This document shows, piece by piece, positions 8,082-33,024 of a stretch of DNA of 64,000 nucleotides. Source of the stretch: Pleurocapsa sp. FMAR1 (lineage in GTDB: Bacteria; Cyanobacteriota; Cyanobacteriia; Cyanobacteriales; Xenococcaceae); contig NZ_OY762512.1 in assembly GCF_963665995.1 (NCBI RefSeq), positions 2,728,001-2,792,000 on the forward strand. The letters are read 5' to 3'. The notes below the pieces were generated by a model that was not told the DNA's origin, made no database searches, and was given only the letters and a program-made list of their open reading frames with translations. The number at the start of each line of letters is the position of its first letter. The stretch's first letter is position 1. The position numbers and the translations under genes are program-made.

Positions 8082-8173
8082 TTGCTTTTTTCAGCTTTCT
8101 CTCCACTGTATTGCAGAGACTACCCACATATTCTCATTAATCTCTTTTCAACAAGCGCGCTATTCCACGTACT

Positions 8174-8714: not shown

Positions 8715-8897
8715 AATTCAAGTTGGAATTAAGTCTATTTCTACTTCTACTGCTATTGCTGAAGTAATTCCTAATTCAATCCAGAGCAAAATTGATAACC
8801 TAAATAGTCTTAATATATTCACCGACCTCAATAAATTAGATACAATGACCATAAATTAAATTAGTTTTCAGTAGCCTTTGCTACTTTTATACAAAAT

Positions 8898-9185
8898 ATG
8901 TCTAACTATTGGGGAAATTATTGGCAACCAGAACAATCGCCTAAAAATATAGCGGTATCTCAACCTTCTAAATGGTTATCTAAATTGTTTGTTAAAGGAC
9001 AGTCATCCTTGGCTAATACATCAGTTCGAGAATTATCTTTATCTAGGCAAGTAGAACATTTGGAAAGGTGTAGCAACTTAGATTCAACACAGCCAGCAAA
9101 GCGTACTCGAATTAGTGAATTTACTTTAGCAGAACCTTTAGGCACAGCCAAGCGATCGCTAATCAAAATGCTTTATGGTAAGTAG
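8898..9185 (+). CDS. Small hypothetical protein
   Basis: A 95-residue ORF with ATG at 8898 (MSNYWGNYWQPEQSPKNI). It is hydrophilic and rich in Ser, Leu and Lys, with no signal peptide or membrane segment; the C-terminal part (RTRISEFTLAEPLGTAKRSL) is basic. It contains a HIP1 site and shows normal codon use for this genome, which supports it being real. I recognise no family. It ends 21 bases before the convergent guanine deaminase gene. Confidence 0.5.
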   Translation: MSNYWGNYWQPEQSPKNIAVSQPSKWLSKLFVKGQSSLANTSVRELSLSRQVEHLERCSNLDSTQPAKRTRISEFTLAEPLGTAKRSLIKMLYGK

Positions 9186-9206
9186 GGTGTGTCAATTTAC
9201 CTGTAC

Positions 9207-10529
9207 CTAAGAAAATTGAACAGCCTCACCTGCAACATAAGTAGCTGTTACCGCACGTTCATCTCCCAAGATCATCATGGCAAAGGCTTTTTCAGTTAAT
9301 TCGGCTAGATTTTTTGATTTAGGGTCGGGGTTACGCAGTTTCATTAAAGGTGTGGCTTGTAAATCCCAAACTACAAAATCAGCTTCTTTTCCTAGTTCAA
9401 AATTACCAATTTGATCCTCCAACGAAAGAGCTTTGGCTGCACCGAGAGTTGCTAAGTAAAAAGCCTGGAATACAGATAAACTCTTATTTTGCAGTTGCAT
9501 GATTTTATAAGCATCACTCATTGTTTTTAGCTGAGAAAGACTTGTTCCGCCTCCTACATCAGTGGCTAAACCAACTTTGATTGGGGTTTGAGTTGATTTT
9601 GCTTGGTCGAGTTTAAATAATCCACTGCCTAAAAATAGATTAGAAGTCGGACAAAAAGCGATCGCTGCACCTGCATCTGATAACCTGGCAAAAGCTGAAT
9701 CATCTAATTGAACGCAGTGAGCTAAAATAGTGCGATCGCCGATCAAATCAAACTGTTCGTATACATTTAAGTAATCTTTACTCTCAGGAAAAAGTTCGGC
9801 AGTAAACTGCACTTCTTGAACATTCTCTGCTAAATGAGTATGTACGTAGACATCGGCAAATTCCGCTTTTAACTTACCTGCTAGAGATAATTCTTCTGGG
9901 GTTGAAGTGATCGCAAAGCGGGGAGTGATAGCATAAAGCAATCGATCTAACCCGTGCCACTGTTGAATTTGTTCGCGAGTCTGGGCATAAGCAGTTTGAG
10001 CGTCGTTGAGCAAAAAATCTGGTGCATTGCGCGTCATCAACATTTGCCCCGCAATAATTCGCATCTGACGACTCTGTGCTTCAGTAAATATAGCTTCCAC
10101 TGACTGAGGAAAAATCGTGGTTAAGACTACGGCTGTTGTTGTACCGTTGCGTAATAGTTCGTCAAGAAAAAAAGAGGCGATTTTACGGGCATACTCCCTA
10201 TCCTTGAACTTAGCTTCAGTAGGAAAAGTATACTGATCCAGCCATTCCATCAATTGTTCTCCATAGGCAGCGATCATCTCGGTTTGAGGATAGTGAACGT
10301 GAAGATCGATTAAGCCTGGAGTAATTAATTTATCTTGATAGCTGGTAATTTCATCATTGGCATATTGTTCTTTTAAGCTTTCATAAGTCCCAAAAGCTTT
10401 GATTTTGCCATTTTCAACTACCAATAGCCCATCTGGCAGATAACGAACGCTATCCACTTCTGATTGATAAAAAGGATCGTTAACAAAGTCTAAAAATGAA
10501 CCACGAATTATTTTAGTAGATGATGACAT
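9207..10529 (-). CDS. guaD: Guanine deaminase
   Basis: The 440-residue product is a zinc-dependent amidohydrolase that converts guanine to xanthine and ammonia. Motifs in order: LIDLHVHYPQTEMIAAYG (near residue 72, metal ligands and guanine pocket), LLRNGTTTAVVL (near 130), YVHTHLAENVQEV (near 228), ILAHCVQL (near 265), FCPTSNLFLGSG (near 290) and GLATDVGGGTSLS (near 320). The order and the HVHYPQ motif are diagnostic for guanine deaminase rather than chlorohydrolases. Length fits the family. With the 8-oxoguanine deaminase at 6720 it makes a small purine-base deamination locus, although the genes are convergent and not an operon. Confidence 0.88.
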   Translation of the reverse strand: MSSSTKIIRGSFLDFVNDPFYQSEVDSVRYLPDGLLVVENGKIKAFGTYESLKEQYANDEITSYQDKLITPGLIDLHVHYPQTEMIAAYGEQLMEWLDQYTFPTEAKFKDREYARKIASFFLDELLRNGTTTAVVLTTIFPQSVEAIFTEAQSRQMRIIAGQMLMTRNAPDFLLNDAQTAYAQTREQIQQWHGLDRLLYAITPRFAITSTPEELSLAGKLKAEFADVYVHTHLAENVQEVQFTAELFPESKDYLNVYEQFDLIGDRTILAHCVQLDDSAFARLSDAGAAIAFCPTSNLFLGSGLFKLDQAKSTQTPIKVGLATDVGGGTSLSQLKTMSDAYKIMQLQNKSLSVFQAFYLATLGAAKALSLEDQIGNFELGKEADFVVWDLQATPLMKLRNPDPKSKNLAELTEKAFAMMILGDERAVTATYVAGEAVQFS

Positions 10530-18870: not shown

Positions 18871-19050
18871 CCTGGTTGACTGACAAAAGATGAAGAGAAA
18901 AACCTGAGAATAGAGATTCAGTAAAGAGTTGAGGGATTGACACAAAGCAAGGGGAGTCAGCACTCTGAGATTAGATACCACTCATAATTTCAGAATACTG
19001 TGAATCAAAACTCCCGTCTCTACAATGCCTTGAATCAATGGATGAGTCAA

Positions 19051-19672
19051 TAGAAGTTTGAAGACAGAAGTATGAAGGCGCGAAGTTTCAAGTTTGTTCG
19101 AGGGCTTGTACCTCATACGAAGGAAGAAGTTTGAAGTTTGAAGGAAGAAGGAATTCGGAATTCGGGAAGGATTTTTTGTAGCTCATACCTCACACCTCAT
19201 ACTTCGCGCCTTCATACCTCATACACAGGGCTATCGCCCAGATCGTCCGTCCTTCGGACGACTTCGATGCTTCGCATCGTGTAGGGCGAAGCCCTGGTAC
19301 CTCTACCAAACTAAGAGCGATCGTGAACGACGGGGCTTGCAACTATAGTGGAACAAAGGACTTGTCCGCATGTAGGAGGAAGTAGCTGTTTACGAAGTTT
19401 GAAGGAAGAAGTTTGAAGGAAGAAGGAAGAAAGATTTTTTGTACCTCATACGAAGGAAGAAGTAGCTGTTTTACTTCATACTTCATACCTCATACTTCAT
19501 ACTTCATGCAGCTGTTTTACTTCATACACGGACTCTCTGTCCGTCGCCGTTCCCGAGGAGACGTCGGAACGCAGAGAGCGTTCACCTCACACTTCGCGCC
19601 ACAGGGCTATCGCCCAGATCGTCCGTCCTTCGGACGACTTCGATGCTTCGCATCGTGTAGGGCGAAGCCCTG
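19051..19672. repeat. 622-bp non-coding element, copy A
   Basis: Inserted in the transposase gene and flanked by GTCAA on both sides (19046-19050, 19673-19677). Contents in order: purine-rich GAAGTTTGAAG-type repeats, a 75-base module (19224-19298), a unique middle part, pyrimidine-rich CTTCATACCTCATAC repeats, a hairpin CGGACTCTCTGTCCG, and a second exact copy of the 75-base module (19600-19674). No terminal inverted repeats and no convincing ORF; it puts a TAG directly into the transposase frame. Confidence 0.88.
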
Positions 19673-20232
19673 GTCAAGCTACTGACTGGTTACATTTATG
19701 TCATCTTCAAACTTGTATTTGGATGATAATTGCTTTAATACACACGGGCAATGTCAACCTGACAAAATGGTCGATGTACATCCCTGGTCGAGGGAAGTTG
19801 GCTGGGGGTAGACAGAGACGTATTCAGCGTTGGCTAAACAATCCTCGAATCAATGTCCATCGAATCAGAAAGTCCTTGGTCAAAGCAGCACTTGATGATT
19901 GGTCAGAATCAAAAATATTTTTGGCATTAGACACTTCACTGTTCTGGGATGAGTATTGCCTTGTGCGGCTTTGGGTTATTCATCGAGGGAGAGCTTTACC
20001 GTTGGTGTGGAGAGTGATGAACCATGAAAGTGCTAGTATTTCAGTTACCGATTATCGAGAGATGATTAAGCAGGCACAAGTTAGGCTACGAGAATCAGTT
20101 AAGGTAATTTTACTCGCGGAGCGAGGATTTATACATACCGAATTGATGACCATGCTGACAACTCAACTAGGATGGCATTATCGTCTCCGAATTAAGAGTA
20201 ATACCTGGATTTGGCGTGGAAGTTGGTGTCAA

Positions 20233-20854
20233 CAGAAGTTTGAAGACAGAAGTATGAAGGCGCGAAGTTTCAAGTTTGTTCGAGGGCTTGTACCTCATAC
20301 GAAGGAAGAAGTTTGAAGTTTGAAGGAAGAAGGAATTCGGAATTCGGGAAGGATTTTTTGTAGCTCATACCTCACACCTCATACTTCGCGCCTTCATACC
20401 TCATACACAGGGCTATCGCCCAGATCGTCCGTCCTTCGGACGACTTCGATGCTTCGCATCGTGTAGGGCGAAGCCCTGGTACCTCTACCAAACTAAGAGC
20501 GATCGTGAACGACGGGGCTTGCAACTATAGTGGAACAAAGGACTTGTCCGCATGTAGGAGGAAGTAGCTGTTTACGAAGTTTGAAGGAAGAAGTTTGAAG
20601 GAAGAAGGAAGAAAGATTTTTTGTACCTCATACGAAGGAAGAAGTAGCTGTTTTACTTCATACTTCATACCTCATACTTCATACTTCATGCAGCTGTTTT
20701 ACTTCATACACGGACTCTCTGTCCGTCGCCGTTCCCGAGGAGACGTCGGAACGCAGAGAGCGTTCACCTCACACTTCGCGCCACAGGGCTATCGCCCAGA
20801 TCGTCCGTCCTTCGGACGACTTCGATGCTTCGCATCGTGTAGGGCGAAGCCCTG
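20233..20854. repeat. 622-bp non-coding element, copy B
   Basis: Same length and, by eye, identical to copy A except for its first base (C instead of T). It is also flanked by GTCAA (20228-20232, 20855-20859). The orientation is the same as copy A. The identity of two non-coding copies 1,182 bases apart points to very recent insertion or gene conversion. Confidence 0.88.
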
Positions 20855-21447
20855 GTCAACCTAAAAACTTTCACTTTCATTTAGCAGAGGCAATTTGCTT
20901 ACACAACGTACAGATTCACAAAGGTGAATTTTCTGGCAAAGTTCATGTGATTCTTGGTCGCAACAACGTTAACGGCGAACTATGGGCAATTGTCAGTAAT
21001 AAAAAAACTACTCTACAAACCTTTGCTGAATATGGATTACGTTTTGATATCGAAGAGAATTTTTTAGATGACCAAGCTGGTGGTTGGAATGTTCAACGCT
21101 CGATGATTCGAGATGTATGCGCTTTGTCCCGTTTGTGGTTTATCTTATCTGTGGCTACTCTCTACGTTAGTGCCCAAGGTGTTGAGGTAGTTCGTATTGG
21201 CAAACGAAGATGGGTTGATACTCATTGGTTTCGTGGTAATAGCTATTTTAGGATTGGTTGGGATTGGGTCAAAGCTGCACTCATTAATGGTTGGAATTTA
21301 CTTCATTGCGTGACTTTCTCTAGTAATCAAGATCCCTCACCTGCAATGGCATCACGATCGCAATATCAAAAACGAGCAGATCAGTTGGAGTTCAAAGTTT
21401 TAACTTATTCCTACAATATTTCTTGAAAGTTTTGTCAGTCAATCAGG

Positions 21448-21538
21448 CGTTAACACTCATTCCTAAAGGCAAGATAAAGTCTTCTCTTAAAATTTCTCCT
21501 GGATGAACTGGACGCATAAGATTAATTGGACGGTTCAT
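21448..21538 (-). pseudogene. higA: HigA antitoxin, N-terminal part
   Basis: Reverse-strand ATG at 21538 reads MNRPINLMRPVHPGEILRED then FILPLGMSVNA, the canonical start of HigA antitoxins, and runs into the IS at 21447. HigA represses its own operon and neutralises the HigB mRNA interferase. No higB gene is left upstream; only NIDYY-stop, which could be the end of one, remains between this start and the MITE at 21574. Confidence 0.8.
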
Positions 21539-21573
21539 AATCTTGTTAGTAATAATCGATATTTTATTATTTT

Positions 21574-21686
21574 AGGACTTACGCAGTTTAACGAGTTTTG
21601 CCCCCCTAGCCCCCCAAATTTGGGGGGAACAAGAATATAAAAGTCTCCCAAGTTTGGGGGATTTAGGGGGCGAGTGCGTAAGTCCT
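21574..21686. mobile_element. 113-bp MITE with AGGACTTACGCA ends
   Basis: Terminal inverted repeats AGGACTTACGCA and TGCGTAAGTCCT border a GC-rich interior of hairpins (CCCCCCAAATTTGGGGGG). The dinucleotide TA is present at each junction (21573-21574, 21686-21687), as for Tc1/IS630-type targets. Non-autonomous elements with this end sequence are widespread in cyanobacteria. It lies just upstream of the broken higA. Confidence 0.85.
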
Positions 21687-21722
21687 ATATTTTATGCCGT
21701 GCTAGGTATGAAAGCCTAAAAA

Positions 21723-22338
21723 TTAGGCTTCCTGGTTGCTCATTTGTTTACGGGCTGCTATGATTTTACATAGACGAGAAGCACCATATAATCCTCCTAA
21801 AATTAAGATACCTAGGTCGGGTGATACGTCGAAGGGAACGGCAGTAGCGGGAGAGGAAGAAAAAGTATAGGCTCCATTGTAGGGAGCAGATTGACTGGAT
21901 TTATTATTTATAAGAGAATATTGAAATGATCCTTTTCTTAAACCAAAATTATGATGTATTCCCGTTAGAAGAACCATCTAAAGTATCTATAAGAAGAAAA
22001 TCATCCATCACTAATTCAGATCCATTTGAGGAAAAAATATTGCTGTAACCCCCTCTATTGAAAAAGGAGGAATTTGGTGTTCCAAAATTTCCTCCAGAAC
22101 CATAAAAAGTAAAGGTTTCACCATTACCTTGAGTAGTGATTTCCCAGTCCTCAAAATCTGATGTTGTTAAATTGCCAGGAATTGCACTATCTTTTACAGA
22201 AAAAGTTCCAGAAGAGGTATTTTGACCGACCGTTAAACCACTAAAAGAGAAATCAAAAGCTTGTGCTGATGACTGAATTGTCAATGCCAGAGTAGTTGCT
22301 AATCCAAATCCAGCAACTTTAGATAAATAATTCTTCAT
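21723..22338 (-). pseudogene. PFE-CTERM-like exported protein, frameshifted
   Basis: From ATG 22338 (MKNYLSKVAGFGLATTLAL) a signal peptide ending SAQAFD is followed by a Gly/Ser/Asn-rich domain (residues 25-125). The frame stops at 21949-21951 after GSSNG. A second frame overlapping it continues HHNFGLRKGSFQYSL and ends with AVPFDVSPDLGILILGGLYG then a basic tail, the short C-terminal sorting signal seen in cyanobacterial PFE-CTERM proteins. One base change near 21960 joins both parts into a normal 200-residue substrate of an exosortase-like system. It is either a pseudogene or a sequencing error. Confidence 0.65.
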
Positions 22339-22561
22339 TTTTGTAAAAATAAATAGATGAGATATATGCATCTCTAATATGGCTGTTGTCTTGTATTTTA
22401 GAAAACAGTATTTTTACGAAAAGTATAGAGTTACACAAAGATACTTTGTGTAATTTACTTAATTAGAAAACTTTTCAAATTCTTTTATTATCTTTGTTAA
22501 TTGCCGAATATTGATTACTAAGCTATAAAAAGGCTTATAGCTCTATCTCTTATTTTTATTC

Positions 22562-23320
22562 ATGCTAAAGTATCGTTTGTGGCGAATTAAACAAAGCTTT
22601 GTTGCTCGCACAAAAACAACCTTGGAATACAAAAGATTAAATATCCAGGTTGAACGAAACTCAACAAAAATTATTAATACTGTTGGTTATGTAATCTTTG
22701 CTGTTGTTTTATTAGACTATGCTTTTCTGTTAGCTTCGGCTCAATTTTCTGATTCTGATTGGGTGCATAGCACGGCTGGTGGTTTAGTGGAAAATGGTTG
22801 GGGGCTTTTGCTGGGATTTCTGTTTATTTTCTACCGTCGCGATCAGGATATTGTCAAACCAAAAGAGTTCTTTCTCCTCAAACTTATTTCTTGGTTGGCT
22901 TTAGTTATTGGTATTAGTTATTTTCTAGTTGCACCTTTGATTATTGGCAATGCTTTTCGGATTAATCGTAATTCTAAAGCACAAATGATCGCTCAAATTG
23001 ATGCAGCTAATACTCAAGTCGAGCAATATTCTACTCAGTTAGAAAAAGCTACTCCCGAACAGTTAGCTAGTGTATTAAAAAACTATCAATCTAACTCACC
23101 AGAACTAGAGATAACTAATAGGCAACAATTAAAAGAAAACTTACTAACCCAAGTTCAACAAAAGCAAAATCAAGCAAAAAAAGAACTACAAACTCAATTT
23201 ACATTACAGAAGAAAAAACTGTTTAAAATAACTGTCAAATGGTCAATGACAGCAATTATGACAGGGATGTGTTTTATATTGATTTGGAAATATACGACTT
23301 GGGCAAGAGTTGGTTATTAA
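22562..23320 (+). CDS. HpsJ-like membrane protein
   Basis: The 252-residue product has four predicted membrane helices: about 38-60 (GYVIFAVVLLDYAFLLASAQ), 74-92, 105-128 and 228-246. Between the third and fourth lies a long charged coiled coil (about 140-225; IDAANTQVEQYSTQLEKATP, then Gln/Lys-rich). This arrangement, with the conserved LxDYAFLLxxAxF start, matches the cyanobacterial HpsJ family, linked to hormogonium polysaccharide secretion or cyanoexosortase loci. Its neighbour is a PFE-CTERM-like protein, which fits a surface-export theme. Family assignment is by resemblance only. Confidence 0.6.
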   Translation: MLKYRLWRIKQSFVARTKTTLEYKRLNIQVERNSTKIINTVGYVIFAVVLLDYAFLLASAQFSDSDWVHSTAGGLVENGWGLLLGFLFIFYRRDQDIVKPKEFFLLKLISWLALVIGISYFLVAPLIIGNAFRINRNSKAQMIAQIDAANTQVEQYSTQLEKATPEQLASVLKNYQSNSPELEITNRQQLKENLLTQVQQKQNQAKKELQTQFTLQKKKLFKITVKWSMTAIMTGMCFILIWKYTTWARVGY

Positions 23321-23649
23321 GCTAAATCTATTGATGAGTTTAGAATAGGTTGATATGGATGAAGAAATAGAGCTAGATTCAACAACATAAATGGGGATTA
23401 AAAACCTTTTTAAATTAGATATAGTTTTTAAAATAGTGTTTGTAGATGAAAGGATTGAGTATAACTGCTATTAGTTTAAGAAGTTTTGCTGAGTGCATGA
23501 ATATTTTTCATACTTTTAAACCATGCTTATGAAAGGCTAGATAAATGTCGTAAATTTGAACTTGATACTTGAAAAGTGCGATCGCTTTCTAACAAATGTA
23601 TAAGTGATAATAATCGTTATAATTTACCCAAAATATACCAGTTAATAAA
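23321..23649. other. Intergenic, nothing recognised
   Basis: AT-rich spacer between the hpsJ-like gene and glutaredoxin, with one HIP1 site near 23579 and a possible -10 box (TATAAT-like) near 23615. No ORF, repeat or RNA structure stands out. Confidence 0.6.
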
Positions 23650-23970
23650 ATGCTTGATTTTCTTAATCCTCTTTTAAATCGTCATCCAGAAAAATATAAG
23701 GCTGATGTAGAAATTTATACTTGGGCTACCTGTCCATTTTGCATCCGTGCCAAGCTACTAATGTGGTGGAAAGGAGTTAAATTTACCGAATATAAAATAG
23801 ACGGCGATGAACAAGCTAGGGCGCAAATGGCTCAAAGGGCTAACGGTAGAAAAAGTGTACCTCAGATCTTTGTTAATAATCAGCATTTAGGTGGCTGTGA
23901 TGATCTCTATGATTTAGATGCTCAAGGACAATTAGAACCCCTGTTAATTAAAGCATCTAGTTCCGTTTAA
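23650..23970 (+). CDS. grxC: Glutaredoxin 3 (GrxC)
   Basis: The 106-residue product is a dithiol glutaredoxin: VEIYTWATCPFCIRAKLLMW carries the redox pair CPFC (near residue 27), with Phe in place of the usual Tyr. VPQIFVNNQHLGGCDDLYDL carries the cis-Pro loop and the GGCDD glutathione-binding motif. It reduces disulfides and mixed glutathione disulfides in the cytosol. A short N-terminal extension (about 18 residues, MLDFLNPLLNRHPEKY) precedes the thioredoxin fold. Own terminator directly downstream. Confidence 0.9.
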   Translation: MLDFLNPLLNRHPEKYKADVEIYTWATCPFCIRAKLLMWWKGVKFTEYKIDGDEQARAQMAQRANGRKSVPQIFVNNQHLGGCDDLYDLDAQGQLEPLLIKASSSV

Positions 23971-23974
23971 TTGC

Positions 23975-24017
23975 AAAAGGCGATCGCTCTATAAAGATAA
24001 CTGGCGATCGCCTTTTT
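23975..24017 (+). terminator. grxC terminator built from two HIP1 sites
   Basis: AAAAGGCGATCGC (23975-23987) pairs perfectly with GCGATCGCCTTTT (24004-24016), 16-base loop, T-run TTTTT. It begins 5 bases after the grxC stop codon. Both arms contain a HIP1 octamer. Confidence 0.85.
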
Positions 24018-24366
24018 ATTGACAAAGTTCTTATCTGCAACACCATCATGGGTATTTATTGGTAATAACTTTATTTTGTATTTTGGCTTTATTTTTAATG
24101 AATACTTTGATTATTTACTGCACTTTTCGGTTGAAATGATTAAGCCTTTATTTTCTGAAAATCTTCGCTTTTAACCAGCATAGCTAAAGGTCGTATTCGT
24201 TTTTTTTACTTGAATTTGGTTTTCTAAGGGGGAAATTAAGAACATCGTAATCCTATAGTTCCCTAGACTAAGATAGTAGATTGACTAGGAAGTAATTCAT
24301 AAGCTATTACTAACAAACATAGAACCTCTAAGCTGTAATAGTCATAAAATATAATTGAAAACCAGT
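24018..24366. other. Intergenic, probable promoter region of the proton-channel operon
   Basis: AT-rich, no ORF. TATAAT occurs at 24350-24355, only 12 bases before the chosen ATG, too close for a normal leader, so the functional promoter is probably further upstream. No other structure noted. Confidence 0.5.
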
Positions 24367-25791
24367 ATGAGCAAGTTAAGCCTTAAACCTAAAGCCCGTA
24401 GTCAAAATTCCAAACGTCAGGAATTAGAAATTGACCCTATCTTTCTATTGTTATTGGCATTAGCAATTTTTCTAGTCACCTATGGTGTAATCGGCATTGT
24501 GCCACCATTTAGGCAATCTTATGTTGGGGTATTACTATTTGAAAGAGGTCCTATTCAATACTTAGTAGTGGCATTGGCTGCGATAGTGTTAGCAACTTCG
24601 ATCTTGAAATTTTTGCTGCTGAGGAATGAATATAATGCTCTAAGTAAGATCTGGATTGCCGATCACATACCTTTAGATCAGCCTGATACTCATGAGGTTG
24701 ATTATTTTCAGCAGCGGTTGATGAAGGACAAAAACTTAATCGCCATAAGATGTGGGCGAATTTTGAAAGCCTATGTAAAAAGTGGCGATCGCACTGTGGC
24801 TAACGAGTTTGCTCTAGATGATTCTTCTTTTTATCTTAGTGCCTCAGAATCTTCCTATTCTATACCTCGTATTTTGGTTTGGGCAATTCCTCTACTAGGC
24901 TTTATTGGTACGGTTGTTGGTATTAGTAGCGCGGTTAATAATTTTTCTGGTCTTTTAAACACTGCGGGAGACATCGAAAAAATTAAGGCGGGAATTGGGG
25001 CAGTAACACAAGGTTTGGGAGTAGCGTTTGATACTACTTTGTTAGCTCTATTTCTGAGTGTCTTGGTGATGATTCCTTTAGTAATAGTTGAAAAATACGA
25101 GTCTAAATTACTCTTGGGAATTGATGTCTTTATTAACGATAAATTATTACCCCGATTAAAAAAGAGAAATGAACAGCTAGATCCAGAAACTATCAATCAA
25201 GCTGTAGAAGGCGCAATCAAAGAATATTTTCCTCAACCTCAAGACTTGATTGAGCCAGCCAATGCTTACGCTGAACAAGCTGCCAAAAGACTCTCTCAAG
25301 GATTTTTATCGGAAATAGGCAAGGTTCAAGACGTTAGCTCTCAGGTCATTGCCCAAGTTGGCGAAGTCAGAAAAATGGCAGATCGCGATCGCCAAGAGTT
25401 TTTGAGCTTTTTTGCCAAGCAACAGCAAGCAAACCAAGAGTTAGTCGTGCAAATTCGAGCAATTTTAGAAGAGATTAGAAGCAAAAATATGGCAGTTGCC
25501 AACGATCTCAATGCTCAAACCCAAGGAATTAGCCACCAACTAGAAAAAGCTGCTCAAGTTTTAGAAAGTAGAGTTGGTTCTTTAGAAACCGCAACTCAGA
25601 AAATGACTGATTTTCAGCAGATACAGCAGGGTTTAGAAAGAAGTTTTGCATCCTTAGAAAAAACTGCACAGCTAGAAAATGTTCTAGCAGGAGTTAAAGA
25701 TAACTTATCTCAGCTTCAGCCCATTCTCCAACAGCTAAATAAGCCTCGTCGCATTACTTTTGTCGAACAGGACAATAATAATAATTCTTAG
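24367..25791 (+). CDS. MotA/TolQ/ExbB-type proton channel subunit with long coiled-coil tail
   Basis: The 474-residue product has four membrane helices: about 25-47 (PIFLLLLALAIFLVTYGVIG), 60-85, 165-190 (LVWAIPLLGFIGTVVGISSA, the MotA/ExbB core) and 215-240 (AFDTTLLALFLSVLVMIPLV). From residue 250 a long helical tail follows, rich in Gln, Glu and Ala (about 290-460). This is the stator subunit type that conducts protons. The tail resembles in layout the long tail of ZorA rather than short TolQ. Start ATG 24367 (MSKLSLKPKARSQ); an upstream TTG at 24355 is weaker. First gene of a three-gene operon with two ExbD-like proteins. Confidence 0.8.
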   Translation: MSKLSLKPKARSQNSKRQELEIDPIFLLLLALAIFLVTYGVIGIVPPFRQSYVGVLLFERGPIQYLVVALAAIVLATSILKFLLLRNEYNALSKIWIADHIPLDQPDTHEVDYFQQRLMKDKNLIAIRCGRILKAYVKSGDRTVANEFALDDSSFYLSASESSYSIPRILVWAIPLLGFIGTVVGISSAVNNFSGLLNTAGDIEKIKAGIGAVTQGLGVAFDTTLLALFLSVLVMIPLVIVEKYESKLLLGIDVFINDKLLPRLKKRNEQLDPETINQAVEGAIKEYFPQPQDLIEPANAYAEQAAKRLSQGFLSEIGKVQDVSSQVIAQVGEVRKMADRDRQEFLSFFAKQQQANQELVVQIRAILEEIRSKNMAVANDLNAQTQGISHQLEKAAQVLESRVGSLETATQKMTDFQQIQQGLERSFASLEKTAQLENVLAGVKDNLSQLQPILQQLNKPRRITFVEQDNNNNS

Positions 25792-25812
25792 TAAAACTAG
25801 ACAGCATTTTTT

Positions 25813-26277
25813 ATGTCAAGGCGTAATATTTATCGCAAAAAACAGGCAGAGGTAGAGCTATTTCCCTTTCTATCTGTTCTTGCCTGTACCATTGGTACTT
25901 TAATTTTATTAATTATCGTTTTAACTACCCAAGCGTTAGAACCTCAAGAGGCTACTGTAGTTGCCAAAGCTGAAAAGGACGGTAAAGGTGCTAATCAAAA
26001 CAAAACTCCTCTTTATATTGAATGTCGTCAAGATGGTTTTATAATTCATCCCAGCAAAGAATTTGCTCCTAGAGCCGATATATACGATCAAAAATCTCCC
26101 TTAAGAAAAACAATTGCCAAGTTAAAAGCTAACAAAGATAAACAGTATTTAATTGTTATTTTGCGTCCAGACGGTCTGGAAATGTTTGATAAACTGCGCG
26201 CGCTGGTAGATGAAGAAGGAATAGATATTGGTTATGAGCCTTTGGAATTTGGCTTAGAACTAAAAATAGAAAGTTAG
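25813..26277 (+). CDS. ExbD/TolR-like protein 1 (membrane Asp replaced by Ser)
   Basis: The 154-residue product has a basic N-terminus, one membrane helix (about 17-40: PFLSVLACTIGTLILLIIVL), a linker, and a small periplasmic-type domain with YLIVILRPDGLEMFDKLRAL and IDIGYEPLEFGLEL. ExbD, TolR and MotB normally carry an Asp at the start of the helix that relays protons; at that place this protein has Ser21, and the nearest acids are Glu13 and Glu15. It starts 21 bases after the channel gene, so it is cotranscribed. There is no OmpA-like peptidoglycan domain. Confidence 0.75.
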   Translation: MSRRNIYRKKQAEVELFPFLSVLACTIGTLILLIIVLTTQALEPQEATVVAKAEKDGKGANQNKTPLYIECRQDGFIIHPSKEFAPRADIYDQKSPLRKTIAKLKANKDKQYLIVILRPDGLEMFDKLRALVDEEGIDIGYEPLEFGLELKIES

Positions 26278-26317
26278 ACAAATAATAAAAATAAAAATTT
26301 AAAAACTAAAATTATTA

Positions 26318-27031
26318 ATGAGAAGCAGAGCAAGGCGAAAAACCAATCATGCCAGCCAAAATTTAGATTCTTTTTTAGATATTCTGACAAACACTGTTGG
26401 CGTATTGATGTTTATTAGTCTGTTTGTCACTTTGATCGCCACTGGTAGTAACCCTAAAACCACGGTAACTATACAAACACCTTTATCCTCTCCAACCAAA
26501 AAAGAATCTCTGTGGTTTGAAATAAAAGACAACAAAGTAATCTACCTAAACCTACGTCAAGTAAGAGAAAAAGAACTGGAATTAACAGGTAACCTGCCCA
26601 ACTGCAATAAACCAGCAAACGGCTTAGATTCGCCTGCAAGTCTAAGTAATTACCAATCTTGTTTACTAAGCGTTTTGGGTCGTCAAAGTAACTTTAGAAC
26701 TAGCACCAAAAACTATGAAGTTCAAACCGTAGATGAAGGTGTATCTTTGCTCTTTAAACCAATATCTGAAGATGTAGGGGAGACAAGCAACCAGCTAACG
26801 GCAGCAGACTCTCAGTTTAAAAAAGTTTTGTCTGAGTATAAACCCAATCAAGATTATTTGGTATTTATTGTTAGACCAGATAGCTTTGAGACTTTTCGCG
26901 CAGCGAGAAAACAAGCTTGGGATGCTGGTTATGAAGTAGGTTGGGAACCCCAAGCTCAAAACTCGCCAATAAAAATCCGTACTATAGTTGGTTCTGAACT
27001 TCCTGGAGGTCAGTCTATCGGTGTGCAATAG
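26318..27031 (+). CDS. ExbD/TolR-like protein 2 (membrane Asp present)
   Basis: The 237-residue product has a basic N-terminus and one helix (about 19-42: FLDILTNTVGVLMFISLFVT) with Asp21 at the proton-relay place. A larger soluble part follows, with two Cys near residues 93 and 112 (NLPNCNKPAN, YQSCLLSVLG), and the same terminal domain as its neighbour: DYLVFIVRPDSFETFRAARK and GYEVGWEPQ. It lies 40 bases after the second gene of the operon. The shared RPD...F...R...GxEP pattern shows the two are paralogues. Substrate or partner proteins are unknown. Confidence 0.75.
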   Translation: MRSRARRKTNHASQNLDSFLDILTNTVGVLMFISLFVTLIATGSNPKTTVTIQTPLSSPTKKESLWFEIKDNKVIYLNLRQVREKELELTGNLPNCNKPANGLDSPASLSNYQSCLLSVLGRQSNFRTSTKNYEVQTVDEGVSLLFKPISEDVGETSNQLTAADSQFKKVLSEYKPNQDYLVFIVRPDSFETFRAARKQAWDAGYEVGWEPQAQNSPIKIRTIVGSELPGGQSIGVQ

Positions 27032-27117
27032 GCTAAAGAATGAGGAAAGAAAAACTGAAGTTACTATGATTCTTTGAAATTAGAATTAAGGACACCTCCG
27101 AAAAAATTACTTAAATT

Positions 27118-27924
27118 ATGACTATAACTACCTACAAATGGTCAATTGAAGAATACCACCTGCTAATTGAATCTGGACTATTAGAGGGGAAATCGGTTGA
27201 GTTGTTAGATGGTGAAATAGTCGAAATGAGTCCAGAAAGGGAAGAGCATAGCTACACTAATGATGATGTAGCAGAGTTACTACGAACAAAACTCAAAGGA
27301 TTGGCTAAAATACGCGAATCTCATCCAATTACTTTAAATAATTCCCTTCATTCTAGGGCAAGCGAGCCAGAACCAGATATCACAGTAGTTAGACTACCTA
27401 AGACTATTTATATTGAGCATCATCCATATCCTGAAGATATTTATTGGTTGATCGAGGTGCGACCCCCTAAAGGGTTCGTGCCTTTGCTTATGCCAGGGAA
27501 CCTTTCAGCATTTGCTCATGGGGGAAACCCCCAAGACCGCAATGCTTCACCACCGCAACTGCTTCACCGCGTCGCCGACAGATCGGGTGGAAACGGCTCC
27601 GTCCAGGAGCCATGTTCCACACCCGCTAGCAAGCGCCAGTTCCTTCAAGTCGGGGAATCCGCCCAACGGACTGGCTTGGGAACGCGCACCTTTGAGATTG
27701 CTAACAAAACTCTGAGTAAAGATTTAGTAGAAAAAAGTGCTATTTATGCCCGTAACGACATTCAAGAGTATTGGATAATAGATTTGGTAAACAAAAAGTT
27801 AATTGTTCATACTCATCCTCAAAACAATAGCTATTCTAAAATAACAGAATACACTGATGGTTCAATTTCTCCTTTGGCTTTTCCCGATCTGGAAATTGCC
27901 CTAGATCAACTTTTATTGTTTTAA
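27118..27924 (+). CDS. Uma2 family endonuclease with an 80-residue in-frame repeat insertion
   Basis: The 268-residue frame is a Uma2 protein: MTITTYKWSIEEYHLLIESG, VELLDGEIVEMSPEREEHSY, ASEPEPDITVVRLP (catalytic Asp) and EDIYWLIE (catalytic Glu). Directly after this Glu the sequence becomes low-complexity and GC-rich for 80 codons, then returns to family sequence IANKTLSKDLVEKSAIYARN, IQEYWIIDLV. Removing 27457-27696 gives the normal 188-residue length and the family motif WLIEIANKTLSKD. The insertion has no stop codon, so a protein may still be made, but the active site is split. Behind the proton-channel operon by 86 bases. Confidence 0.75.
   Translation: MTITTYKWSIEEYHLLIESGLLEGKSVELLDGEIVEMSPEREEHSYTNDDVAELLRTKLKGLAKIRESHPITLNNSLHSRASEPEPDITVVRLPKTIYIEHHPYPEDIYWLIEVRPPKGFVPLLMPGNLSAFAHGGNPQDRNASPPQLLHRVADRSGGNGSVQEPCSTPASKRQFLQVGESAQRTGLGTRTFEIANKTLSKDLVEKSAIYARNDIQEYWIIDLVNKKLIVHTHPQNNSYSKITEYTDGSISPLAFPDLEIALDQLLLF
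27457..27693. repeat. 237-bp repeat element inserted in frame in a Uma2 gene
   Basis: GC-rich insertion flanked by GAG on both sides (27454-27456 and 27694-27696); 240 bases including one GAG, a multiple of three. Its ends GTGCG and CGCAC are inverted. It shares CACCGCGTCGCCG, GGGTGGAAACGGCTC and GTTCCACACCCGCTAGCAAG with the element at 8296-8583, and GACCCCCTAAAGGGTTC at its left side. Confidence 0.8.
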
Positions 27925-27937
27925 ATTTTTATTGCTC

Positions 27938-28177
27938 ATGAAAGCATTTGTAGGTCTATTAAATTCTTCGATGTGGGCAGGTTATATTGCAGCGATCGCC
28001 ATTTTCTCAATTCAAAACATTAAACCTGTATCCCTTAACTTTCTCACATTTCAATCCATTAACATACCTGTAGGAGTATTGTTGACTTTTTGTGGCGCAG
28101 CAGGAATAATTATTGGCTGGTTTATTCCCTTATTGTTTTCCAAAAGGAGAAGAGTTAATACCAATTCTCGAATATAG
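27938..28177 (+). CDS. LapA-like (DUF1049) small membrane protein
   Basis: The 79-residue product has two membrane helices (about 12-30 and 44-66) joined by IQNIKPVSLNFLTFQSINIP, the layout of DUF1049/LapA-domain proteins: AIFSIQNxxPVSLxFL is their signature. The C-terminus is basic (LLFSKRRRVNTNS). Role unknown; in enterobacteria the relative LapA helps regulate lipopolysaccharide synthesis. Start ATG 27938 (MKAFVGLLN) is preferred over an in-frame codon two positions upstream. Follows the Uma2 gene by 13 bases. Confidence 0.7.
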   Translation: MKAFVGLLNSSMWAGYIAAIAIFSIQNIKPVSLNFLTFQSINIPVGVLLTFCGAAGIIIGWFIPLLFSKRRRVNTNSRI

Positions 28178-28239
28178 CGAGAGATTTGAGTTTTGTTAGG
28201 AGATAGGTTTTAGGGTGTGGGGTGTAGGTACAAGTATAA

Positions 28240-28905
28240 TTATTGCTTTTGAGAAGCCAATTTATCTGCCCATCTAGTAGTCTCAGGCAAACGGTATTTT
28301 GTCAAACAGCCCATCACATATTTGATCGCCGTAGGCAAACTGATCTTGTGTCCAATTGATACATAAATAGGCTTTACCTTGGTGCGCGATCGCAATACCA
28401 TGCCGATAGTCTCGTGCTTATCTATTAAAGGCTGCTGGCTACCTTTGTCTAAAGCAACTTCTTCATGTTTACCAATAAACCAGGATTTTGCTACCCCAAT
28501 AGTCGGAATATCTAACAGCACTCCTAAATGAGATGCCAACCCTAGGCGACGAGGATGAGCCAAACCTTGACCATCACACAAGATAAGGTCAGGAATAGTA
28601 TTTAACTGCGGAAAGGCTGCCAAAATTGCGGGAATTTCGCGAAAAGAAAGATATCCAGGCACATAAGGAAAGGCTGTAGGAATACGAGCGATCGCTTTTT
28701 CCACTAACTCTAATTCTGGATAACTCAATACCACTACTGCTGCTTTGGAAATAGCATAGTTATTTTCAAAGCCAATATCTACCCCCGCTACATATTTAAC
28801 CTCTCCCAAAGTGTCTGTGGTAATTACCTGATGTCTTAATTGCTCCTGAATTTCCTTGGCTTCGGCTACAGTTTTGACCCAAGGATGGTTAAAATTAATT
28901 TTCAA
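28240..28905 (-). CDS. nfi: Endonuclease V
   Basis: The 221-residue product has all EndoV motifs: VKYVAGVDIGF (catalytic Asp near residue 43), FPYVPGYLSFREIPAI (wedge PYVPGxLxFRE with catalytic Glu near 89), ILCDGQGLAHPRRLGLASHL (catalytic Asp near 110) and TIGVAKSWFIGK. It nicks DNA one base 3' to deaminated bases, chiefly hypoxanthine, using magnesium. Length is normal. Monocistronic; the stop codon lies 63 bases from the convergent LapA-like gene. Confidence 0.92.
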   Translation of the reverse strand: MKINFNHPWVKTVAEAKEIQEQLRHQVITTDTLGEVKYVAGVDIGFENNYAISKAAVVVLSYPELELVEKAIARIPTAFPYVPGYLSFREIPAILAAFPQLNTIPDLILCDGQGLAHPRRLGLASHLGVLLDIPTIGVAKSWFIGKHEEVALDKGSQQPLIDKHETIGMVLRSRTKVKPIYVSIGHKISLPTAIKYVMGCLTKYRLPETTRWADKLASQKQ

Positions 28906-29111
28906 TTTGATATAGATAAGAAATAAAACTAGGCTTTTTTAGTATAAATTCAACACTTTATTTACTTTTATAGCATTACAACTTTTATTAAGTAACGTTA
29001 AGATATCTGTAGCTGATTCCCTTCAGCAATATTTATCAAAAGCTTAAACCCCTTCTACGATAAGCTTACGGCTTATAGCTAGGGCGAAGCCCTTTATCTT
29101 TAAGAAAATTT
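28906..29111. other. Intergenic with a small GC-rich palindrome
   Basis: Spacer between divergent nfi and the MFS gene. Near 29078 it carries AGGGCGAAGCCCT, the same core that closes the 75-base module of the 622-bp elements, plus AAGCTTACGGCTTA. This may be a single repeat remnant. Confidence 0.5.
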
Positions 29112-30377
29112 GTGAAAGCCTGGAAAGTTCTCGAAAAAACCACAAAACAAAAGCTGATTTACCTATTTACAGCAGGATTGCTATTCTGGATCAGCATTAC
29201 TTTATTATTACCGACTTTACCTACTTATATTCAAGTAATGGGTGGTACTGTTCAACAGGTAGGAATAGTAATGAGTTGTTTTGCGATTGGACTACTAGGT
29301 TCTCGTACTTGGTTAGGAAAGGTAGCAGATCGCCGTAGCCGAAAACTAGTGATTTTAATTGGTGCGCTAGTAGCAGCCATAGCACCTATAGGCTATTTAC
29401 TAGTTAATTCTATAGTTGGTTTGGCAGAGATTAGGGCTTTTCATGGCATTAGTATTGCAGCTTTCACCATTGGCTATAGTGCTTTAGTAGTGGATTTAGC
29501 ACCTCTGCAACATCGAGGAACGTTAATTGGCTACATGAATTTGGCTGTGCCGATTGGAATGTCTGTAGGACCAGCTATGGGTGGATTTTTACAGGCTAGT
29601 GGCAAATTATTTGTTCGAGATGGTACGGGCTACGAAGTTGTATTTATAAGCTCAATGATCTGCGGTATTTTAGCTTTTTTATTGGCGAGTCAAATTAAAG
29701 AATCAGCACTACCAGAAGCAGAATCTCAACAAAAGTTGAGTAACAGTAGGCGAGATTTTTGGCAGTTAACCAAAGATCCTGGTTTAATTGTGCCGACTAT
29801 TATTTTATTGCTGGTGGGTTTGGTTTTTGGGACTTTAGTTGCTTTTTTACCTTTGTATATCAAGGAGTTGGAGCTAGACTTTAACGTCGGATTATTCTAC
29901 ACGGCAACGGCGATCGCCTCTTTTTCAGTCCGACTATTTATTGGTCAAGCAAGCGATCGCTATGGTCGAGGCTTATTTATCAGTGGCGCGCTTGTTTGCT
30001 ATATTGTCTCGATGGTGTTGCTAACCTTGGCTCAGACCCCAATCATGTTTATCTTAGCTGCGATCGCCGAAGGAGCAGGAGCAGGAATACTAATTCCTTT
30101 GGTTTTAGCTTTAATTGCCGATCGCTCCTATGCCCAAGAAAGGGGACAGGTTTTTGCCTTGTGTATGGGGGGATTTGACTTAGGTATTGCCCTAGGAGGC
30201 TTTATTCTTGGTTCTCTATCTTTTGTCTTAGGGGGTTATCAAGGCATCTTTGCCTTAGCTGCAATCTTGGCTTTAGTTGCTCTAGTCATCTTTGTGACCC
30301 AAGCAGGTAAAAACCTGCGTCATTCTCTTTACTTTGCCCTGGGAAAAGCTCAGGATGTTTATGCCCTAAATAAGTAG
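29112..30377 (+). CDS. MFS transporter
   Basis: The 421-residue product has 12 hydrophobic helices. The loop between helices 2 and 3 carries the MFS motif GSRTWLGKVADRRSRKLVIL, and its counterpart in the second half is FIGQASDRYGRGLFISG. Helix 5 region PIGMSVGPAMGGFLQ matches drug/proton antiporter-type members. The substrate cannot be told from sequence; export of small molecules or drugs is the usual function of this subgroup. GTG 29112 is the start giving the full first helix. Monocistronic. Confidence 0.85.
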   Translation: MKAWKVLEKTTKQKLIYLFTAGLLFWISITLLLPTLPTYIQVMGGTVQQVGIVMSCFAIGLLGSRTWLGKVADRRSRKLVILIGALVAAIAPIGYLLVNSIVGLAEIRAFHGISIAAFTIGYSALVVDLAPLQHRGTLIGYMNLAVPIGMSVGPAMGGFLQASGKLFVRDGTGYEVVFISSMICGILAFLLASQIKESALPEAESQQKLSNSRRDFWQLTKDPGLIVPTIILLLVGLVFGTLVAFLPLYIKELELDFNVGLFYTATAIASFSVRLFIGQASDRYGRGLFISGALVCYIVSMVLLTLAQTPIMFILAAIAEGAGAGILIPLVLALIADRSYAQERGQVFALCMGGFDLGIALGGFILGSLSFVLGGYQGIFALAAILALVALVIFVTQAGKNLRHSLYFALGKAQDVYALNK

Positions 30378-30479
30378 TTGAACAAAATCAAATTCAACGT
30401 TGATGCTCAAAGTCAGAGGTCAGAGTCAGAGGTCAGTAATAATTAACTGTAGTTATTTCTGTCCATGTATTTCAGCCTG

Positions 30480-30767
30480 TTATTCTTGTTCTAAAGAATT
30501 AGACTGTACTGACCCCAACTGTTGTCTAACATCATCAATTGCCAAATTCAATTGAGCAATTTTGTCTTCTAAACCATGACGAGCTAGTTCAATACTCTCT
30601 TCATTATCAAAAGGTATTGCTTTACCACTGCGTAAAATTGTCCGATCTTGTCCTACAATTTGTTTCTCGCTGCGATTTGCCAGTGCTGTCCCCAGCAGTC
30701 CGCCAACAACACCGCCAATAATTGAACCGAAAATAAATCCACTGCCAAAACCATTCTGTTGACTCAT
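30480..30767 (-). CDS. Small glycine-zipper protein, YtxH-like
   Basis: The 95-residue product (ATG 30767, MSQQNGFGSG) has a hydrophobic Gly-rich helix FIFGSIIGGVVGGLLGTALA with GxxxG spacing, then RSEKQIVGQDR and a C-terminal amphipathic helix (ELARHGLEDKIAQLNLAIDD). Similar proteins occur in most cyanobacteria without assigned function and resemble YtxH-type membrane-associated proteins. Lies 43 bases downstream of upp on the same strand, so the pair may be cotranscribed. Confidence 0.65.
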   Translation of the reverse strand: MSQQNGFGSGFIFGSIIGGVVGGLLGTALANRSEKQIVGQDRTILRSGKAIPFDNEESIELARHGLEDKIAQLNLAIDDVRQQLGSVQSNSLEQE

Positions 30768-30810
30768 AGTAATCAAACTACTTAATATTGTTTATTTGAA
30801 GTTTGGTAAT

Positions 30811-31461
30811 TTAAGTGCCAAAAGCGCGATCGCCTGCATCTCCTAGACCAGGAACTATATATCCTTTGCTGTTTAATCCTTCATCGATAGTAGCCGTGTA
30901 GATTTCTAGTCCAGGATAACTTTCGCTCAATTGTCTAAGAGCAGGAGGAGCAGCAACCACGGAGACAATCCGAATAAACTCAGGCTGGACACCTCGACTA
31001 ACAATCTCCTTCATTGCCATCATAATCGATCCTCCCGTAGCTAGCATCGGTTCAAGGATAACGATTCTTGCTTGGGGGTTAAAGCGATCGGGTAATTTGT
31101 TTAAATAACACTCAGGTTCAAGAGTTGATTCATTCCTTACCAAACCTAAATGATAAATCCCTGCCAAAGGCAGAATTTGTTGCACTCCATCTAACAATAC
31201 CAAACCTGCTCGGAGAATTGGTACTATTCCCACAGGCATCTCAGGGTTAATAAATGTGGCAGAGCATTCTTTTAAGGGGGTTTGGACTACTGTATCTAAA
31301 GTAGGCAGCCAATTTCTAGTCGCTTCATAAGTCAACCATCGTCCTAATTCCGTCATCGCACTTTTGAATAGCACAGAAGGTGTATCAACGTCCCGTGCAA
31401 CCGCCAGCCAATGTTTAATCAAAGGGTGTTCTGGAACATAAACTCGCAGTTGTAAAGTCAT
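30811..31461 (-). CDS. upp: Uracil phosphoribosyltransferase
   Basis: The 216-residue product makes UMP from uracil and PRPP. Visible are VGIVPILRAGLVLLDGVQQI, the PRPP loop VILEPMLATGGSIMMAMKE and the uracil-binding C-terminus NSKGYIVPGLGDAGDRAFGT, all diagnostic. Length is close to the usual 208-215. Start ATG 31461 fits (MTLQLRVYVPEHPLIKHWL). Probably first gene of a two-gene transcript with the YtxH-like gene. Confidence 0.9.
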   Translation of the reverse strand: MTLQLRVYVPEHPLIKHWLAVARDVDTPSVLFKSAMTELGRWLTYEATRNWLPTLDTVVQTPLKECSATFINPEMPVGIVPILRAGLVLLDGVQQILPLAGIYHLGLVRNESTLEPECYLNKLPDRFNPQARIVILEPMLATGGSIMMAMKEIVSRGVQPEFIRIVSVVAAPPALRQLSESYPGLEIYTATIDEGLNSKGYIVPGLGDAGDRAFGT

Positions 31462-31889
31462 ATTAGCAAAAATATTCTGTGCTGAAAAACGTCGAACCTA
31501 CAGCAAGGTTAACATTACATAGCCATTCTACAAACCTGCATTAGTTTCTAATTTAATTCTGCCTAATATTTTACTCAAGGCGATCGCCTTATTTTAAATG
31601 TTCGTACACCTCAAGAATATAGTGGCGAATTATTTGTCATGAAACCTCCGACAGAAAAGGGAGGTTCTTGACCTCTTTGCACGAGATAATATTATTTCTT
31701 CGTAAGCAACTTAGTATAAGGGTTCTCTTGCACAATGTTAAAAGCTTCGTCTATAGGAGCAAAGATGATACAAAAAAAGCCTTAATCTAACAACTTAACT
31801 AACATTGCTACTTCATATTGCTTGAAGCAGAGTATTCAATAATTCGCTTCCTAAAGCAACCTCTACAATATTTATATCCCAGTACTAGA
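31462..31889. other. Intergenic with a hairpin, no gene
   Basis: Holds an AACCTCC/GGAGGTT hairpin (about 31643-31667) and a short phase that reads LNVRTPQEYSGEL, too short to call. No ORF with support. The ORFs seen antisense to 31890-32258 are shadows of the repeat protein. Confidence 0.5.
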
Positions 31890-32258
31890 TCAATCCCCAG
31901 TACCAGATTCATCAGTTTCCCTTTCCGTACCCGTATCAGATTCATCCGTTTCACTTTCCGTACCTGTATCAGATTCATCCGTTTCACTTTCCGTACCTGT
32001 ATCAGATTCATCCCTTTCCATATTCGAATTCGTACCAGATTCATCCCCTTCCGTTTCCGTACCCGTATCAGATTCATCCGTTTCACTTTCCGTACCCGTA
32101 TCAGATTCATCCCTTTCCGTTTGCGCCATCTTGTGAGATTCTATTGAGTCGGTATGGTTATCCGCCAAGACAGGAGATATAGATAGAGTACCTGTACCAA
32201 AAAGAGTCGTGAATACCAATAGTTGTCTTGATATTTGTGTGAAAAGATTAACATTCAT
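31890..32258 (-). CDS. Exported acidic protein made of 11-residue repeats
   Basis: From ATG 32258 (MNVNLFTQISRQLLVF) a signal peptide ending ISPVLA precedes a short linker (DNHTDSIESHKMAQTER). The rest is six tandem 11-residue units of the type DESDTGTESET plus a partial unit (DESGTGD). At DNA level the unit is 33 bases. The repeat is very acidic and has no Cys; it should be disordered and could bind calcium or other cations outside the cell. No family is recognised. Repeat-unit count may vary between strains. Monocistronic. Confidence 0.7.
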   Translation of the reverse strand: MNVNLFTQISRQLLVFTTLFGTGTLSISPVLADNHTDSIESHKMAQTERDESDTGTESETDESDTGTETEGDESGTNSNMERDESDTGTESETDESDTGTESETDESDTGTERETDESGTGD

Positions 32259-32503
32259 TAGTTTCAAATTACGTAATTGTATTTAGATGCTAGTCATTTT
32301 TACTTACTAAATAGTCTTACTATGGTCTGAAACGGGAAAATACTTTTTTCTGTAAATGGTTAGATACCATTATTAGCGATCTCTGTTAATTAACAATCTT
32401 TACTTTTGCACCATCTGCAAAACGATTTTGTCCTTGGGTAACTACAGATTATTCTGGTTCGACACCCTTCTATAAAGCCTAGGTAGTAGATAGTAGGTAA
32501 CAA

Positions 32504-32716
32504 TTAAATCGAGCTACATCTTTGATCGATCCAAAGTTTAGCTTTACGAATAGCATCTATGCTGGTCAGAGCAAAGGGTACAGCTACAGCACAGCCTTGC
32601 TCATGATTGACCCATGCTGCATAGATACAGTGTCCATCTGATTCGTCACGGTCTATTTCTACTTTGCAGCCACGATAAGCAAAAGAGAGAATAATCTGAG
32701 GATAATTAGGCTTCAT
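32504..32716 (-). CDS. Small conserved hypothetical protein
   Basis: The 70-residue product (MKPNYPQIILSFAYRGCKVE) has a beta-rich start, a central segment DGHCIYAAWVNHEQGCAVAV and a final amphipathic helix (SIDAIRKAKLWIDQRC). Length, composition and the well-formed ATG suggest a real protein. It has no membrane helix. Function is unknown. Confidence 0.55.
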   Translation of the reverse strand: MKPNYPQIILSFAYRGCKVEIDRDESDGHCIYAAWVNHEQGCAVAVPFALTSIDAIRKAKLWIDQRCSSI

Positions 32717-32804
32717 TATAGTTGTTCAAAAAACAAAATTGACGGTATCGAATCAAATGATTGCTGATAAGTGAACTATTTACACGCTCGAATTAGCGAC
32801 TCGT

Positions 32805-32939
32805 TCAAGTTTTACTAGTTTTGTTTCTCGCTTCAACAATTTCCCAAACTTCCTGCCATCTATTGGTAATTATGCGCTTCATTTTGTTTGATTGCCATTG
32901 AGGAATACCACGGGTTTGGGAGTTTTTAAATTCAGTCAC
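32805..32939 (-). CDS. Possible 44-residue ORF
   Basis: GTG at 32939 gives VTEFKNSQTRGIPQWQSNKM followed by KRIITNRWQEVWEIVEARNK. The second half forms an amphipathic Trp-containing helix, so this may be a small protein or the tail of a lost one. No other support. Confidence 0.3.
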   Translation of the reverse strand: MTEFKNSQTRGIPQWQSNKMKRIITNRWQEVWEIVEARNKTSKT

Positions 32940-33024
32940 GATACTTATTTGCTCTTAAATATGAATCAAGTAAGCGGATATAGAGTTAAACATCTAAAAT
33001 ATCCGCTCTTGTTTTAATTTCTGC

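Follow-up and report, generated by a model that had tools for sequence, protein, structure and literature searches.

Stator motors of the MotAB kind and their kin are described as five channel subunits around a dimer, with an ion-binding aspartate on each dimer helix (PMC9389320). What kind of machine can be expected when a channel gene is accompanied by two different partner genes, one of which lacks this aspartate? The question is raised by a locus of the cyanobacterium Pleurocapsa sp. FMAR1, whose genome forms one contig of 5.43 Mb. We analysed a stretch of 64,000 nucleotides (nt) of this genome (assembly GCF_963665995.1, contig NZ_OY762512.1, positions 2,728,001 to 2,792,000), hereafter called the window. 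Three genes, named here A, D1 and D2, follow each other in this order on the + strand, with spacers of 21 nt (A-D1) and 40 nt (D1-D2). A preliminary description of this DNA had proposed one MotA/TolQ/ExbB-type gene and two ExbD/TolR-like paralogues, with Ser21 of the first facing Asp21 of the second without a gap, and both sequence and profile comparisons confirmed this.

D1 (25813..26277, + strand, 154 amino acids, aa) and D2 (26318..27031, + strand, 237 aa) are ExbD/TolR-like proteins with one helix each. Profile-profile comparison identified them as paralogues (probability 98.9, E 1.3e-17) that share their helix register and end domain. The D1 helix FLSxLxCTIGTL aligns without gaps with FLDILTNTVGVL of D2, so that Ser21 of D1 (codon TCT, 25873..25875, + strand) stands opposite Asp21 of D2 (codon GAT, 26378..26380, + strand). 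The membrane aspartate of ExbD, TolR and MotB is present in D2 and missing from D1, unlike the two Pfam-detected ExbD proteins of the same genome, which both carry it. D1 scored 18.2 bits with Pfam ExbD (PF02472), under the cut-off of 25.4, and D2 had no Pfam family match at E<=10, PF02472 included. The C-terminal domain had been thought to be new, which was not borne out: the structure model of D2 best matches TolR and ExbD, and its periplasmic domain has their fold, with an insertion.

The asymmetry of the D1/D2 pair was followed in the open reading frames (ORFs) of the window and of loci L063-L153, using score limits of 100 bits for D1, 60 for D2 and 100 for A. Merging identical sequences reduced 72, 78 and 70 ORFs to 65 distinct D1, 70 distinct D2 and 63 distinct A sequences. 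The sequences of L089 belong to subfamily II (see below), all others to the subfamily of the window (subfamily I). Of the 65 D1 sequences, 61 have Ser at position 21, always with a TCN codon, and 69 of the 70 D2 sequences have Asp there, the pair thus being kept in the homologues. The remaining D1 sequences have Asn (L089), Asp (L106, a Xenococcus metagenome-assembled genome, MAG), Ala, or a gap (a decayed Calothrix copy); the remaining D2 has Ala. Four residues further on, position 25 is Cys in 64/65 D1 and Asn in 69/70 D2, suggesting that the two helices are constrained differently. As far as the alignments tell, D2 retains the ion-binding Asp, and D1 is a paralogue in which it has almost always been replaced by Ser. 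A set in decay was observed in Calothrix NIES-3974 (L092, 9039-10683), where A is cut to its C-terminal part, a stop lies near the start of D1, and D2 is open.

Gene A (24367..25791, + strand, 474 aa) encodes a channel subunit of the MotA/TolQ/ExbB class with a fold like that of TolQ, ExbB, ZorA and MotA, and it passes Pfam MotA_ExbB (PF01618) with 28.4 bits against a curated cut-off of 22.9. It has four Kyte-Doolittle hydropathy peaks, all encoded on the + strand: residues 27-45 (24445..24501; 2.76), residues 66-84 (24562..24618; 2.58), residues 169-187 with the invariant GFIGT containing Thr182 (24871..24927; 2.18), and residues 223-241 with the invariant D222-T223-T224 (25030..25089; 2.7). 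A long C-terminal tail, presumably cytoplasmic, follows at residues 291-447 (25237..25707, + strand), modelled as helix by AlphaFold2 with block means of the predicted local distance difference test of 48-80. Thr182, Asp222, Thr223 and Thr224 are each found in 62 of the 63 aligned rows, the remaining row being a truncated gene. These comparisons establish for A, at the level of sequence, the channel fold and the conserved channel threonines. Asp222 (codon 25030-25032), directly before the fourth-helix threonines, is present in every untruncated row.

Do the three genes belong together? Using queries of the window type, by which distant sets could escape detection, and E<1e-30 as the limit for a strong A match, we surveyed 292 genomes of the cyanobacterial phylum. 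A and D1 were each found in 22/292 genomes, and these were the same genomes. D2 was found in 21 of them; in the 22nd (G181) it adjoins D1 and was detected by a hidden Markov model with 66 bits. No lone member of the trio was found among the 292 genomes, barring a D2 fragment in G048, outside the 22, and weak A-like matches alone in eight other genomes (E 6.8e-5 to 8.8e-4), which were not counted. Within one genus (g5), two genomes (G014, G080) carry all three genes and two (G076, G093) carry none. Presence and absence go together, but linkage is not always kept: D2 lies apart from A-D1 in 9 of the 22 genomes (G080, G109, G119, G145, G187, G089, G179, G247 and G280), and in the last four all three genes are mutually apart. 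These four (f24) are taken as Thermosynechococcus-like, judging from neighbour genes that they have in common with named Thermosynechococcus loci. In the preliminary description, separate occurrence of the two ExbD-like genes in other genomes was to count against an asymmetric stator; such separation is real, yet the genes are still inherited together and the idea stands.

A named collection yielded 55 D2 loci. The closest named relatives of the D2 of the window are Pleurocapsales. All loci are cyanobacterial by label except two MAGs, one labelled Gracilibacteria (L142), whose A pairs with Hydrococcus (100/99), and one labelled Chloroflexaceae (L144), whose A is on a long, unplaced branch. The three genes are close together, in the order A-D1-D2, in 46 of the 55; in L118, D2 is preceded by a gap of about 1.1 kb, and eight pieces hold D2 without A, two of them with D1. 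Nine genomes from such loci were searched for A: in three it was already known, five have it elsewhere in the genome, and in one it was not found. The pairwise distances of 62 sets (two long branches excluded) correlate at 0.83 for A-D1, 0.82 for A-D2 and 0.90 for D1-D2, values uncorrected for shared ancestry. The sequences thus show that the three genes are passed on as a group, also where they are dispersed, and their co-dependence is well supported.

The history of the asymmetry can be read in part from the trees. That of A (62 rows) mostly groups by cyanobacterial family. The genome of the window has a second set (about 3267804-3270085 of the contig; L093), and each of the three gene trees joins it to the second set of Xenococcus PCC 7305 (supports 1.0, 0.997 and 1.0). 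Among 300 genomes of the Cyanobiaceae, the family of G181, 17 have relatives of A. Four of them form subfamily II (G181, G314, G502, G551), with Asn in D1 and Asp in D2, and one (G435) represents subfamily IV, with Asp in both. Subfamily III (G331, G358, G362, G366, G383, G401, G405, G429, G501) has Asp in 9/9 D1 and 9/9 D2, and an A of 272-279 aa without tail, that of G401 running off its contig. The remaining three (G341, G373, G409) have partial or weak relatives of A and were left unclassified. Subfamilies II and IV form a clade (100/100), and subfamily III lies on a long branch; the tree is unrooted. Since the D1 of these distant sets has Asn, or has Asp as D2 does, the loss of the Asp from D1 is probably derived, and the asymmetry therefore has a history. 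The simplest reading would be an ancestor with Asp in both, from which D1 went to Ser in subfamily I and to Asn in subfamily II.

We propose, with about even confidence for and against, that the products of A, D1 and D2 build a single proton-driven motor of the MotA/TolQ-ExbD/TolR class, assembled as A5:D1:D2 with a single protonatable axle helix. Five A subunits would surround a D1:D2 heterodimer, and the single Asp, on the only protonatable one of the two axle helices, would carry all protons past the five A in turn. According to a 2022 review, 36-degree steps separate equivalent states of such motors (PMC9389320); the proposed one would advance once per A subunit, in five steps of about 72 degrees and not in ten alternating half-steps. 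The TolR-like domains of D1 and D2 may act at or near the cell wall, which is plausible given the hidden peptidoglycan-binding activity reported for the periplasmic domain of TolR (PMC4646322). The tail of A might serve as an output arm by analogy with Zorya, in which the tail of ZorA matters for function (PMC11890865), and different lineages may have coupled the motor to different partners.

Such a pair matters for the published 5:2 model, in which two equivalent axle subunits alternate in ion binding: a pair found in nature and conserved, in which one partner lacks the Asp, allows a direct test of whether a single ion site suffices and of what this does to stepping. A close parallel is the gliding motor AglR-AglQ-AglS of Myxococcus, which also consists of one TolQ-like and two TolR-like proteins (PMC3169522, PMC9389320). 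It differs in that the Asp is predicted to be retained by AglQ and AglS alike, whereas D1 has Ser. Whether AglQ and AglS form hetero- or homodimers is stated as open in the 2022 review (PMC9389320), and the D1/D2 pair bears on this question. We found no description of the cyanobacterial triad or of an Asp-less ExbD pair in the open-access literature, most subscription papers being outside the search.

Several observations weigh against the proposed A5:D1:D2 motor. The 72-degree stepping is itself deduced from a published model, and the distance correlations carry the unremoved effect of shared ancestry. No A was found in G298, an incomplete 2.1-Mb Thermosynechococcus MAG that has D2 and lies outside the 292-genome set. 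Subfamily III has no tail, so that the tail is not essential to the whole family and output through it would not be general. In G080 (Cyanobacteria bacterium RI_101; also L153) both D1 and D2 have Ala21, so that neither protein has the Asp. L106 has Asp in both, and it is the only close relative with Asp in place of Ser21, a substitution that the preliminary description had named as damaging. Its D1, however, looks as if its start had been copied from that of D2, because residues 1-35 score 117 with D2 proteins and 82 with D1 proteins, and the remainder is clearly D1 (512 with D1 proteins, 96 with D2 proteins). Finally, D1 could form separate homodimers, or stand outside the ring like TonB or TolA. 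The A of RI_101 (L090, L091) retains the channel residues.

A position of D1 outside the ring is part of an explanation that we consider possible though doubtful, in which the actual motor is A5:D2(2), bearing two Asp, and D1 serves as an inhibitor, an assembly factor or an outside transducer of the TonB/TolA kind. ExbB5-ExbD2 complexes carry an extra outside helix (TonB, TolA), and this precedent, together with the lack of Asp in D1 and its near-invariant Cys25 where D2 has Asn, would fit it. On the other side, D1 is clearly paralogous to D2, sharing its helix register and end domain, and the Asp in D1 of subfamilies III and IV, and again in L106, suggests that D1 sits where an Asp can act. 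Other explanations concern the task and not the build. In one that we regard as rather unlikely, the set is an anti-phage device of the Zorya type, whose periplasmic domains sense envelope damage and whose A tail signals inward. Of the weak matches to A, those to ZorA models rank among the better ones (PADLOC 6.9e-6, NCBIfam 6.3e-6), so that the likeness to Zorya noted earlier holds, but membership does not: A scores 25.5 bits with NCBIfam ZorA, far under the cut-off of 100, and Zorya has the single partner ZorB, with an OmpA-type peptidoglycan-binding domain, where the triad has two partners with no OmpA family among their Pfam matches at E<=10. Inspection by eye of the ORFs that overlap 19000-33000 (A aside, at most 421 aa long) revealed no ZorC, ZorD or ZorE, in agreement with the earlier statement that they and an OmpA-type ZorB are absent; the PADLOC scan around this set took in the two nearest ORFs per side. 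Four Nostocales loci favour a defence role, A-D1-D2 lying directly downstream of, and in the same direction as, a type III-B CRISPR module of Cmr genes whose last one or two genes encode CARF-HEPN-type proteins (Richelia sinica L064, Dolichospermum L067, Cuspidothrix L122 and the Anabaena cylindrica plasmid L203). Family scans of the L067 module gave Cas10b, Cmr3 and two CARF-HEPN matches (5e-250 and 4e-133), the L203 module is known from the plasmid annotation, and those of L064 and L122 from closely similar sequences. Likewise, a SMODS oligonucleotide cyclase, a SLATT effector and a PLD-SNF2 helicase lie just upstream of the set on a Microcystis plasmid (L204, 1981-9511), D2 adjoins a PbeC-like gene in G187, and in G051 a GmrSD_N gene is close to D2, with a Cas_APE2256 gene some 5 kb upstream of A. 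Linkage to cas10/cmr genes was seen in the four Nostocales loci and not at the set of the window. Against a defence role, the A tree mostly follows taxonomy, and a control gave no sign of a general enrichment in defence genes, which we reject. For this control up to two nearest genes per side of 26 loci (98 proteins) were compared with 26 random regions (100 proteins) from mostly the same genomes; at E<=1e-20 they matched 44 and 115 PADLOC families, respectively, a crude comparison as PADLOC families overlap and families, not matched proteins, are counted. Twenty-eight regions had been picked, two of which (both G051) gave no ORFs, and four of the longest among 104 selected proteins were left out; the test loci exclude G109, G179, G247, G155, G048, G181, the plasmid loci and the named loci, and the control has one region each of G109 and G181.

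Also unlikely in our estimation, but suggested by subfamily II, is a cell-surface motor that controls the presentation of large secreted adhesins, as SiiA/SiiB do with SiiE. SiiAB is reported to be a Mot/Exb/Tol proton channel of a type I secretion/giant adhesin system (PMC12607715). In subfamily II a similar proton channel lies beside such genes, as in the SiiA/SiiB, SiiCDF and SiiE system of Salmonella, in the order type I secretion ABC protein, HlyD, small protein, A, D1, D2, a 162-171-aa protein (with a signal peptide by eye), then a convergent giant gene. The full block is seen in G181, Synechococcus sp. NB0720_010 (G181:C1 756899-797579; L089, L164-L166), with a giant protein of 10,749 aa, and in G551, where the giant-gene piece has 1,865 aa and a Cadherin_5 match. 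G314 has the block without the peptidyl-prolyl isomerase-like gene, with giant-gene open frames of 1,502 and 788 aa, and the 4-kb contig of G502 shows an HlyD-like end and a small gene before A-D1-D2. The giant protein of NB0720_010 has been described as cadherin-like, in a listing that gives it without motor genes (PMC9387257). Nevertheless, SiiAB has one MotB-like partner and not two, and the block was seen in subfamily II alone: by eye, the two genes on either side of the window copy, and of other inspected subfamily-I sets, include no type I secretion genes, nor was a block of type I secretion genes and giant adhesin seen in the ORF list of the window. The family of the 162-aa neighbour of the Synechococcus set occurs in 10 of the 22 set-bearing genomes, that of the query included, and in 22 of 270 others (Fisher p 1.6e-5, or 6.7e-5 without the genome of the query, uncorrected for kinship), an enrichment that is not strict, and we reject this protein as an obligate partner. 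With no general enrichment in the control, the CRISPR link appears lineage-specific, and the secretion link likewise. Adhesin-type and defence-type roles are both candidates in the organism of the window, and the shifting neighbours suggest one engine serving several jobs. Only tentatively would we extend the proposal to a rotary motor with a heterodimeric axle and a single Asp carrying all ions, in which the D1 Asp was probably lost twice (to Ser in the majority of cyanobacterial carriers, and to Asn in Synechococcus relatives) and which has become coupled to a type III-B CRISPR module in Nostocales and to a type I secretion/giant-adhesin block in Synechococcus.

The surroundings of the sets are otherwise varied. 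Thirty-six loci were inspected by eye, and most sets lie among unrelated, often housekeeping genes. Two inspected Nostocales loci (L115, L092) have no type III-B module, and the contig of a third (L097) is cut at A. In a fourth (L065), bounded upstream by a contig edge, viperin and its kinase are encoded about 6 kb downstream; viperin is also carried by plasmid L203, where A-D1-D2 (7031-9610) come after the type III-B module, and L067 also holds a 42-copy repeat family. A family of about 478 aa, histidine kinases by eye, is found in 16 loci, just upstream of A in the two inspected (L069, L129). No relative was found in viral contigs. A plasmid search with the A of subfamily III gave weak matches in Sagittula and Rhizobium plasmids; on that of Sagittula stellata (L205, 5479-7457) a MotA/TolQ/ExbB protein is followed by two small proteins, ExbD-like by eye, both with Asp, so that one-channel, two-partner sets may not be confined to cyanobacteria. 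In the window itself, near-identical ORFs at 19413-19685 and 20595-20864 flank and interrupt a frame that by eye is transposase-like (19723-21426). Downstream of D2, an ORF of the Uma2 type by eye (27118-27924) contains an in-frame insertion that resembles a repeat-derived ORF of L001 (554-886) and looks like a dispersed repeat.

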